Virus record (IMG/VR): IMGVR_UViG_3300045538_000084 | Coordinates: 1 to 33,850 of that record | Length of the DNA: 33,850 nucleotides | DNA from: a virus | Strand: one strand, 5' to 3' | Position numbers and translations under genes: made by a program | In this document: positions 1 to 21,661 of the stretch, piece by piece | Position numbering within the stretch: position 1 is the first letter of the stretch | Layout of the letters: every line of letters starts with the position of its first letter | Notes under the pieces: generated by a model | Seen by the model: only the letters and a program-made list of their open reading frames with translations | What the model was told of the DNA's origin: nothing | Databases searched by the model: none

Positions 1-56
1 GGGTGAATATTGTTCGGGGGTGAACGTCGTTCGGGGGTGAACCTGCTTCGGGGGTT
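1..56. repeat. Iteron-like 17-bp direct repeats inside the initiator gene (candidate origin)
   Basis: On the plus strand the core TTCGGGGG begins at 13, 30 and 47, an exact 17-bp period, and a partial unit (GGGTGAA) lies at 1-7. The two complete units (12-25 and 29-42) are GTTC-GGGGGT-GAAC, so each has inverted 4-bp arms. A period of 17 is not divisible by 3, so successive units are read in different frames and the conservation cannot be due to the protein. Repeats just after the DNA-binding domain of an initiator are the usual form of a lambda-like origin. More units may lie beyond the window edge. Confidence 0.6.
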
Positions 57-295
57 ATGACGTACAAAGTAGCCCGTCCAGTCCTCATCTGTCGGCTCAG
101 ATACCCGTGCTTTTCTAACCAACTGACAGACGATTGAACCGCACGGTCAGACAATGAACACTTGCGTTCAAGCAGGGATATGCTCGGAAAGCATTGGCCT
201 TGGTCGTTTGCGTTATCACACAAGGCTAATAACACTAGCTTTTGTGTCGCAGGAATGTCTGCTTCAAATGCAGAGCACATGAGTTTAATGCTCAT
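1..295 (-). CDS. Phage replication initiator, HTH_36/O-like, 3' end cut by window
   Basis: The minus frame opens at ATG 293-295 and stays open to the window edge (98 codons seen). Residues about 5-80 form a winged helix-turn-helix of the kind found in phage replication initiators and HTH_36 proteins: an opening with DIPATQKLVLLALCDNA, a CFPSISLLERKC segment, a recognition helix with LSDRAVQSSVSWLEKHGYL, then a basic wing. After the domain comes a Pro-rich linker (TPEAGSPPNDVHPRTIF) written by a 17-bp DNA repeat (separate entry). Its start overlaps the end of the HNH gene by 11 nt, so the two are probably co-translated. By analogy with lambda O, the protein may bind the repeats inside its own gene to start replication; that role is inferred. 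It could instead be a transcription factor. Confidence 0.72.
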   Translation of the reverse strand, partial: MSIKLMCSAFEADIPATQKLVLLALCDNANDQGQCFPSISLLERKCSLSDRAVQSSVSWLEKHGYLSRQMRTGRATLYVITPEAGSPPNDVHPRTIFT

Positions 296-1044: not shown

Positions 1045-1674
1045 CTACTTGAAAAAAGCATCCATTGTGATAGGTGCAACCCCTCGTAACACCTGTAACA
1101 CCTGCTCTGCCAGCTCTCGGTGTTCTTTTTGTGTAGTAGGGTCAAGGCGCTGTTTTAGGTAGAAGATCCAACTACGCATGTTGCCGTTCATGTACATCCG
1201 CGATAACGTCAGACCCTCTGGCAACAGTGCCCGAGCCTGCTCTTTTGCGATACCCATATCTAGCGCTTGACGGTATGCGTTTACCGCCGTGCGTTCAACT
1301 CTGTGTTGCAGACTCTCCCACTCCATCCTCAGCTTGTCATCTGTGCATTCCAGGCTGTTTTGTCTGTTCTTTGTATCCTGTAACCTGCACTCTCGGTTGA
1401 CGATAGTCCCGAGCTTGCCAGCGTCTTGATAGCGTTGGCTGAACTCTTGGAAGCTAAACGACCTATGTCTAAGTATCTGCCTACCAATATCTCGCGTTGT
1501 CTCAATCTCGATACATACGTTAGCCATCTCGAAAGGCGATACATGCCCGTGTTCCATGAGATACGCAATCAGCCGAGTATTTTCTGACCGCTGGTTGTCT
1601 GGATTGGACACCCTAGCCATGTACAGAATCTGCTGATCTATGTCCGGCGTGGCCCACTGTAGCTTCACTTGCAA
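1045..1674 (-). CDS. thyX: Flavin-dependent thymidylate synthase ThyX
   Basis: ThyX makes dTMP from dUMP using methylenetetrahydrofolate, with FAD and NADPH as reductants. The family signature RHR-x7-S is present at residues 69-71 and 79 and runs on into QRY. The C-terminal active-site stretch LPEGLTLSRMYMNGNMRSW, followed by F, is also intact. At 209 residues it is near the short end of the family but appears complete. The start is TTG at 1672-1674, six bases after a GGGAG ribosome site that lies within the end of the upstream DUF1364 gene; the two genes overlap by 10 nt. It probably boosts thymidine nucleotide supply for phage DNA synthesis or replaces host ThyA. Confidence 0.95.
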   Translation of the reverse strand: MQVKLQWATPDIDQQILYMARVSNPDNQRSENTRLIAYLMEHGHVSPFEMANVCIEIETTRDIGRQILRHRSFSFQEFSQRYQDAGKLGTIVNRECRLQDTKNRQNSLECTDDKLRMEWESLQHRVERTAVNAYRQALDMGIAKEQARALLPEGLTLSRMYMNGNMRSWIFYLKQRLDPTTQKEHRELAEQVLQVLRGVAPITMDAFFK

Positions 1675-1949
1675 GTCAATCTCCCAGTCTCAAATAACGC
1701 TAAAAGAGTTTTTCTAAAAGCAGCCTCCCACATCTGCTGCCGCTCGTCTGAAGTAAGGTTCTTGCCTTGATCTAGCTCGGCATGGCAACGGATACAGAGA
1801 GCAGCAACAAAGCAATCGTGAGCTTTCTGCCCCATGCCTTTTCCGTATACACCCCAGTTAGCATGTGCCGCCTGAGTCATACCTTCTGCCCCGCAGTGCT
1901 GGCAGGACAAATCACTTACGGCTTTCAACAGCTTTTTCGATCTGTACAT
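1665..1949 (-). CDS. DUF1364 family HNH-like zinc protein
   Basis: This 94-residue protein matches the DUF1364 pattern of phage and prophage proteins: a start in MYRSKKLLKAV, a zinc pair C16-x2-C19, AAH near residue 28, a GKGMGQKAHD segment, and ALCIRCHAELDQGK with C52-x2-C55-H56. The histidine and cysteine layout is that of a minimal HNH fold, so a small nuclease or structure-specific DNA-binding role in recombination is plausible. The family has no settled function that I know of. It is coupled by overlap to thyX downstream (10 nt) and to the zinc-ribbon gene upstream (38 nt). Confidence 0.85.
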   Translation of the reverse strand: MYRSKKLLKAVSDLSCQHCGAEGMTQAAHANWGVYGKGMGQKAHDCFVAALCIRCHAELDQGKNLTSDERQQMWEAAFRKTLLALFETGRLTCK

Positions 1950-7900: not shown

Positions 7901-8434
7901 TTAAACTCCTTGTGTTCCGTGGTTAGCAAAGCATCCAAAATACAATCGTCTTGCCTCGTAAGCAACCAAATCTGCTAAATCAATATCATTGTAAAAACCA
8001 AATGATTTTGATTTTTTGCTTATTGTTAACTTAACTTGCCATTTGTTTTTTTGTTTATTCCAGCCTACGTTTTTATAACCAGACTGATTGTGTTTTGGAC
8101 GTTTTGAGTTTCTTAAATTTTCCGTATGTGTTGACGCTCTAAGATTAGAAATATTGTTATTTTGCCTGTTCCCATCAATATGATCAATTATTTGTGGAGT
8201 AATGCCATGAAACATTAAAAACACAAGCCTGTGCTCTTGATAACGAATCTTATTAATTGAAACATTAACATATGGCCCGCTTTTGCTACCTGCTTTTTGA
8301 TTGCTATAACGCTGATTCCAGTTTTGCCACCTACCCTCGGTTTTAAAGTCTGACCTACGCCGTTCTTTCCAATAAAGCCCATCCTCTCTGTACTCAAATA
8401 GCCTAAGCACTTCTTCTTGCGTTGCATTACGCAT
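7901..8434 (-). CDS. Homing-type HNH endonuclease with AP2-like DNA-binding domain
   Basis: 177 residues. The HNH core contains RYQEHRLVFLMFHG and IIDHIDGNRQNNNISNLRA; the AP2-like C-terminal part contains SGYKNVGWNKQKNKW and FGFYNDIDLADLVAYEARR. This is a common freestanding homing endonuclease. It is clearly more AT-rich than its neighbours (19 G/C in 60 bases at 8041-8100) and fits exactly between the tail fibre stop and the next start, with AAAGGAG before its own ATG inside the fibre gene end. It is a recently acquired selfish gene, probably not essential to the phage. Confidence 0.9.
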   Translation of the reverse strand: MRNATQEEVLRLFEYREDGLYWKERRRSDFKTEGRWQNWNQRYSNQKAGSKSGPYVNVSINKIRYQEHRLVFLMFHGITPQIIDHIDGNRQNNNISNLRASTHTENLRNSKRPKHNQSGYKNVGWNKQKNKWQVKLTISKKSKSFGFYNDIDLADLVAYEARRLYFGCFANHGTQGV

Positions 8435-20717: not shown

Positions 20718-21019
20718 ATTTTCCCCGGATGCGTTCTAAAGAAACGGTTATCAGGATGGTTCAAAAAGGCTTTGAATCGTGTCTGATCGATAACAGTAAA
20801 GCCCTGCATGATCTTGTCACGGTTTAACTGATCGACAACAGTGAGAGGCAGGCGAGCAACGTGGGTAATGACATCATCGAACTTACCGTCTGAGTCATTG
20901 TATTGCCGCTTGTTAGCATCGATGATTTTAGAAACATCCTGCCTTGTTTCTAGAATCACCCCGTCATCAGTCTCGTGTGCGACTGTATAACGGCCATCTT
21001 CAACTGAGAATAGTTTCAT
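20714..21019 (-). CDS. Conserved phage protein of unknown function downstream of capsid
   Basis: 101 residues with ATGA overlap to the HNH gene upstream. The sequence has an N-terminal beta part (MKLFSVEDGRYTVAHETDD), a helix with SKIIDANKRQYNDS, HVARLPLTVVDQLNRDKIMQ and a signature ending FLNHPDNRFFRTHPGKI. The closing FLNxPDNRxFRTxPGxx motif recurs in small proteins of many phages with T7-like or SU10-like heads. No activity is known to me; a head-assembly role is guessed from place. Confidence 0.7.
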   Translation of the reverse strand: MKLFSVEDGRYTVAHETDDGVILETRQDVSKIIDANKRQYNDSDGKFDDVITHVARLPLTVVDQLNRDKIMQGFTVIDQTRFKAFLNHPDNRFFRTHPGKI

Positions 21020-21606
21020 TGATCTACTCTAACATGCGACCAGGTTCTTCCAACCCTGACGCCTCGGATGCAATTTGGAGACACGCCAAACCGTCTAGCT
21101 AGGCTTGCATGGCTGTCTGAGCTTTGACGGATTTGCTTCACGATTTCTTCGTTTATCAGCGCCTTGCCGTTTCCAGTTCCTACAGGAGCAACTACTCGCT
21201 TCCTGCCTTTGCTAATCATGTCTTGAGAATTTTCTTTTGGAGTTCCGATTGATAGATGTTTAGGGTTCACACAACTCGGGTTATCACAACTATGCATTAC
21301 AAACATACCGGCAGGAATTTCTGCCTTATTTGCCAATCGCCAGCTCACTCTATGAGCGCCATCAGACCCTAGTGCTTTAACGCCTAAACTTATTCTTCCG
21401 TATCCATTTGCAAGTTTCTGACCTTGCCATTCCCAACATTCGTTTTCGCCAACCTTTTTGACTTTAAGCCAGAACCTAACCTCTAACGGGGCTTGCGACC
21501 ACTTCCTATCTTCTGTGGTTCCGTATTTTTTCAATCTAACGTAATGCTTATAACAGTAACCAAATGCTTTTAATTTTCCACCACAACCATCTACTTTGCA
21601 CTGCAT
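21016..21606 (-). CDS. Homing-type HNH endonuclease following the capsid gene
   Basis: 196 residues from ATG 21604-21606. N-terminal zinc motif C3/C8/C18/H21, then ECWEWQGQKLANGYGRISLG, HRVSWRLAN and the HNH core HSCDNPSCVNPKHLSIGTP, with a C-terminal helix-turn-helix (LARRFGVSPNCIRGVRVGRTW) for target recognition. The stem of a hairpin covers its ribosome site (21608-21635, separate entry). An upstream in-frame ATG at 21642 exists and would translate through the hairpin. The gene is less GC-rich than the capsid gene. Insertion beside a highly conserved gene is typical of homing endonucleases. Confidence 0.88.
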   Translation of the reverse strand: MQCKVDGCGGKLKAFGYCYKHYVRLKKYGTTEDRKWSQAPLEVRFWLKVKKVGENECWEWQGQKLANGYGRISLGVKALGSDGAHRVSWRLANKAEIPAGMFVMHSCDNPSCVNPKHLSIGTPKENSQDMISKGRKRVVAPVGTGNGKALINEEIVKQIRQSSDSHASLARRFGVSPNCIRGVRVGRTWSHVRVDQ

Positions 21607-21607
21607 G

Positions 21608-21635
21608 GCTACCCCCATCGTTAGACAGGGGTAGC
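21608..21635 (-). promoter_or_regulatory. Hairpin after the capsid gene covering the HNH ribosome site
   Basis: GCTACCCC at 21608-21615 pairs with GGGGTAGC at 21628-21635, a perfect 8-bp stem with a 12-base loop. On the minus strand the second arm (GGGGTAGC) ends two bases before ATG 21606, so folding would hide the Shine-Dalgarno sequence of the HNH gene. It also lies 26 bases past the capsid stop, where many phages have a terminator, but no T-run follows. Either sequestering or a decayed terminator is possible. Confidence 0.55.
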
Positions 21636-21661
21636 TTATCATGCAATCAGCACACGGTCAA

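Follow-up and report, generated by a model that had tools for sequence, protein, structure and literature searches.

That replication origins can lie inside phage initiator genes is an old idea, reportedly reviewed by Weigel and Seitz in 2006, and the principle is already known from phage lambda. Iteron plasmids use Rep_3-type initiators, whose iterons are usually not part of the rep coding sequence. The origins of plasmids RK2, F and P1 combine direct repeats bound by the initiator with an adjoining melting element that itself contains 13-mer-like repeats (PMC5043065). In lambda, the inverted-repeat iterons bound by the O protein and an AT-rich tract lie in the middle of gene O, and Stx phages carry two extra iterons, which add 13 amino acids (PMC7466680).

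The locus described here is at the left end of a 33,850-nt stretch of viral DNA (the window), which is the whole of an IMG/VR virus record. Its repeats very probably form the left-hand portion of a replication origin of the lambda type, located inside its own initiator gene, a reading to which we give a probability of about 0.88 and in which initiator binding and origin firing would proceed as in lambda. The lambda-like layout that the sequence-only reading had proposed is borne out, with iterons in an O-like gene and, in relatives, an easily melted tract beside them. As in lambda, where the iteron centres are 20-24 bp apart, several inverted repeats occur in the middle of the initiator gene and are followed by the easily melted tract, a gene with a weak P-like match lies downstream and a cro-like gene upstream, and the two-iteron step of 39 bp that separates lambda from Stx phages is also seen between array variants. 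However, the lambda iteron (TCCCTC...GAGGGA) differs from the GAA-N5-TTC dyad with C-rich flanks found here, the spacing is 17-17-22-22, and the initiator is an HTH_36 protein instead of a Pfam Phage_rep_O protein. The purine-strand AT tract of lambda is also replaced by AACCRTCA boxes, which lack the purine/pyrimidine strand asymmetry of such a tract. The locus shares directly repeated sites beside a melting element with iteron plasmid origins but differs from these in its intragenic sites and its HTH_36-type initiator.

In the window, TTCGGGGG occurs at positions 13, 30 and 47 and at no other site, against about 0.5 expected by a first-order model for the two strands together, and the longer GTTCGGGGGTGAAC occurs at 12-25 and 29-42. 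The self-match of positions 1-56 at lag 17 (32 of 39) is the highest of all 56-nt stretches of the window at lags 5 to 29, and Tandem Repeats Finder reports positions 1-55 with a period of 17, 3.2 copies and a score of 68. The 17-bp repeat noticed earlier is therefore real. Its unit had been taken as a pair of GTTC/GAAC arms, which is the wrong phase. In full-length close relatives, five units are present (CCCCGAA at gene positions 243, 260, 277, 299 and 321), spaced by 17, 17, 22 and 22 bp, and GTTC-N6-GAAC becomes GTTC-N11-GAAC at the 22-bp spacings. Because GAA-N5-TTC is unchanged while the GTTC/GAAC gap widens, the arms delimit a variable gap between units and the unit is CCCC-GAA-N5-TTC-ACCC, whose invariant dyad, GAA-N5-TTC, is an inverted repeat present in every unit of the window's clade. 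Hence the 17-bp period stands within the window but not as the only spacing. On the strand shown, GGGTGAA-N5-TTCGGGG begins at positions 1, 18 and 35, and the three iterons, to which no strand is assigned, were delimited from the repeat analysis and the relatives at 35-53 (iteron 1, core at 39-49), 18-36 (iteron 2, core at 22-32) and 1-19 (iteron 3, core at 5-15, the record ending within its flank). The suggestion that the units extend beyond position 1 is confirmed by the relatives, with five in all, and related phages retain the array at the same gene position instead of carrying unrelated sequence there. Two relatives (L009 and L010) have only three units and are 39 bp (13 codons) shorter, in frame.

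The left end of the record cuts the minus-strand initiator gene (2-295), and an array at the very end of a contig could be a collapsed or spurious terminal repeat produced by assembly. This explanation, which we consider to have next to no chance of being correct, is refuted by two independent contigs, L002 and L003, whose sequence agrees with the record across the array and then leads into its opposite end, bridging positions 1 and 33,850 over about 646-648 nt. L002 is 99.5% and L003 95% identical to the first 1.1 kb of the record. It is more likely that the assembly broke at the repeat than that the repeat is an artefact. Since the two contigs join both of its ends, the record resembles a circular map that is almost closed and was broken in the iteron array. 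It is best interpreted, from these overlaps, as a circularly permuted genome, some 34.5 kb long in full, from which a piece of about 646 nt with the rest of the initiator is missing. In L002 and L003, this piece holds iterons 4 and 5 and the AACCRTCA boxes.

The sequence-only reading had also claimed that the DNA, and not the protein, is conserved in the array. Successive units are indeed read in all three frames (TPERGSP, PPNDVHP and PRTIFTP). Among six members of the clade, conserved residues were encoded by different codons in 49% of comparisons in the HTH domain, 43% in the C-terminus and 17% in the boxes, but in 0 of 404 in the array. Use of the three frames and the absence of silent changes, against about 45% elsewhere in the gene, demonstrate that the conservation is at the DNA level. 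In addition, synonymous recoding of 52 initiator genes predicted 63 units and 19 boxes, compared with the 283 units and 150 boxes present. The linker encoded by the array is proline-rich and predicted to be disordered in the AlphaFold model of L003, and a repeat selected as protein would fit these properties. However, units that are mutually out of frame and specify three different peptides, together with the frozen silent sites, refute this explanation, which is left with a negligible probability.

The repeats were also correctly placed within a replication initiator gene. The 5′ part of this gene (2-295, minus strand, 98 amino acids, running off the left end) matches HTH_36 (E 1.7e-14) and PHROG 391, replication initiation O-like (E 1e-19), which lambda O also matches along with PHROGs 678 and 345; the full-length protein has 234 amino acids in L002 and L003. 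A winged-helix DNA-binding domain (residues 13-66; 98-259, minus strand) is supported by the Pfam match and by the AlphaFold model of L003, in which pLDDT is about 90 over residues 10-70. On these profile matches, the initiator would work like lambda O and belong to the broader O-like PHROG set, outside Pfam Phage_rep_O (PF04492). Lambda O matches PF04492, whereas the window protein and its relatives match HTH_36 only. Queries with the initiator and with lambda O found no relative in a PDB sequence search, a profile comparison of the winged helix with lambda O gave no usable alignment, and a fold search with the model returned generic winged helices, none with an E-value below 0.001.

The early operon, in order, encodes a Cro/YdaS-like protein, a small ORF, NinB, two small ORFs (one HNH), a ThyX-type thymidylate synthase (1045-1674, minus strand, two genes before the initiator), an HNH endonuclease and the initiator. 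The two HNH genes are at 285-806 and 1665-1949 (minus strand), and one of them overlaps the start of the initiator gene. Directly downstream of the initiator lies a gene with a weak PHROG match to a P-like loader (E 1e-4 and 4e-4) and no Pfam match. Erf and a YqaJ exonuclease are divergent from the operon. In its predicted gene content, this region resembles a lambdoid early region.

The layout of iterons and boxes recurs widely, though not universally, among the 85 distinct relatives surveyed, and about 50 divergent initiator genes share a common geometry. In the 52 genes with at least three units and at least two boxes, from which the geometry was counted, the spacing found most often is 17-17-22-23-22 (in 14 genes), and the start of the last unit is 20 nt from the first box in 37. 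The half-sites vary, with GAA in the window's clade and others, GCA as the commonest, GCC and GAC, while the C-rich flanks are constant. The cultured Pseudomonas phages phi2, MD8 and LESphi3 similarly combine an HTH_36-like O gene with AACC boxes, in the order O-P or O-hypothetical-NinG, but they contain seven GCA-N5-TGC iterons spaced by 17, 17, 17, 21, 23 and 22 bp and their initiators are less than 60% identical. The E. coli phage mEp460 and the Vibrio phage D328 also have an HTH_36-like initiator, dyad repeats and a box array, with GAACCAGTCA as the box and iterons of another sequence.

The variation of the half-sites was compared with 82 protein positions in 65 sequences sharing less than 85% identity in the HTH domain. 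Residues 50 and 55 have the highest mutual information with base 2 and base 3, respectively. Both belong to the predicted recognition helix (residues 50-62; 110-148, minus strand), which in the window protein includes D50, R51 and S55 and was delimited from the model and from this association. D50 occurs only with A at base 2 (9 of 9, and 0 of 46 sequences with C; Fisher p 3e-7), and R55 in all six sequences with C at base 3 compared with 1 of 59 others (p 8e-8). Because the sequences are related and tree support is low, this is an association and not proof of contact, and an independent-pairs test on the tree, with too few supported branches, did not reach significance. The correspondence nevertheless offers a testable specificity code.

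Past the last iteron, GAACCRTCA boxes follow one another, mostly 11 or 12 bp apart and across frames (ITIK, EPSI and NRQK). In 51 relatives, nearest-neighbour energies place the least stable 40-bp segment at the first box, a stretch that is absent from the 33,850-nt window itself. Viral contigs were scanned for GAACCRTCA-N2,3-GAACCRTCA, blind to the iterons, with the permuted motif GCAACRTCA as a control. The raw number of box pairs is no evidence, since the control likewise gave at least 120 matches; the evidence lies in their location in initiator genes. Among the matches listed, 89 of 115 box stretches fall in ORFs with a winged-helix domain, compared with 1 of 120 for the control, and the boxes are in the sense orientation in all 89 of these initiator ORFs. 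Among the other 26 matches listed are simple repeats and ORFs cut off by the end of a contig. In 300 genomes of the order of Herbaspirillum, the 12-bp-spaced form had two matches and a reversed control none; one is a Herbaspirillum initiator (the genome of L093) and the other (L440) falls in an initiator-like ORF whose own repeats, which include CGAC and GTCGG, are unrelated. The boxes recur where the iterons are unrelated. They or near variants are also present in the cultured phages phi2, MD8, LESphi3, mEp460 and Arthrobacter PhluffyCoco (GAACCGTCC), but lambda O contains no AACCRTCA box.

We tentatively propose, as an idea that may well be wrong, that phage origins with HTH_36-type initiators have the AACCRTCA array in common as a sequence-specific melting and loading element, over a range that takes in Pseudomonas and E. 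coli phages and one Arthrobacter phage. The array would stay fixed while iterons and C-terminal domain are exchanged and would be recognised in single-stranded form by a shared factor, as a phage counterpart of the oriC 13-mers. A somewhat unlikely alternative is that the origin reading is right and the array is simply an easily melted tract whose sequence is irrelevant, as the coincidence of the boxes with the least stable duplex, in the position of lambda's AT-rich tract, would allow. Against a tract of this kind, the boxes have a specific sequence, point the same way with respect to the gene and keep an 11-12 bp spacing across frames. The two views are compatible, since the oriC 13-mers are melted as well as bound (PMC5043065). 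A further question posed by the box array is which factor recognises the strand once it is opened.

Alongside the computed features (i.e., position, continuation, DNA-level constraint, fixed geometry, helix/half-site association and low-stability box region), a mechanism for the lambda-type origin can be proposed in which binding, opening and helicase loading are modelled on lambda (PMC7466680, PMC5043065). Winged-helix dimers of the initiator would bind the five GAA-N5-TTC iterons encoded in the disordered linker of the same protein. The spacing is 22-23 bp, about two helical turns, among the three iterons closest to the boxes, which would put these roughly on one face of the DNA, and 17 bp among the distal ones. 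The complex would open the adjacent least stable stretch carrying AACCRTCA boxes every 11-12 bp, and the C-terminal domain, with the downstream P-like protein, may then load the host helicase. Alternatively, the initiator could bind inside its own gene as a repressor of its own or the downstream operon's transcription, the origin being elsewhere. Such an operator would suit a winged-helix protein whose dyad sites lie close to the beginning of a downstream operon, and iteron-binding initiators often autorepress, as established for plasmid Rep proteins. However, this improbable explanation does not account for the two-turn spacing, the easily melted boxes, the O-like family or the P-like neighbour, and an operator role could coexist with an origin.

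The lambda-type origin is supported by the continuation of the array, the O-like family, the freeze of silent sites, the shared spacing, the helix/half-site association and the position of the boxes at the least stable duplex. Counting against it are the missing Pfam Phage_rep_O match, the failure of the winged-helix profile to align with lambda O, a box with no counterpart in lambda O and the lack of a turn in cumulative GC skew at the array, for which a check had been suggested. The skew is negative almost throughout and follows the coding strand, which makes it uninformative.

Most phage origins are unmapped, and the constant geometry, with iterons at 17, 22 or 23 bp followed by boxes at 11 or 12 bp, allows the origin of many phages to be located from their sequence. 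No description of this geometry, of the AACCRTCA array or of the helix/half-site correspondence was found in the open-access papers covered by the search, although a subscription paper may have them. Searching the literature with the box sequence yielded no paper on phage origins among the 20 of 506 matches listed.

The initiators around L003, L015, L033 and L042 differ in the PHROGs matched by their C-terminal domains (3992/1408, 678/6451, 11896 and 270/9327). The occurrence of these domains behind the same winged helix and arrays suggests that the loader-contact domain is exchanged at the array. In L014:6001, L032:6001 and L133:193, the winged-helix frame stops just past the array, without a C-terminal domain (122, 96 and 123 amino acids), and these short frames may reflect a frameshift, an error in sequencing, or a gene that has been split or has decayed. 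In L027:2055-3119, an in-frame insert of about 85 amino acids interrupts the initiator linker at the iteron region and includes a stretch, HYTYCIE...FYIGVRT, that resembles a GIY-YIG nuclease motif. Elsewhere in the window, more HNH-like ORFs were seen by eye at 7901-8434 and 21016-21642, and the N-terminal half of a minus-strand gene at 32430-33140 matches a phage RNase H PHROG (E 1e-30), while the rest looks like a different domain of low similarity.
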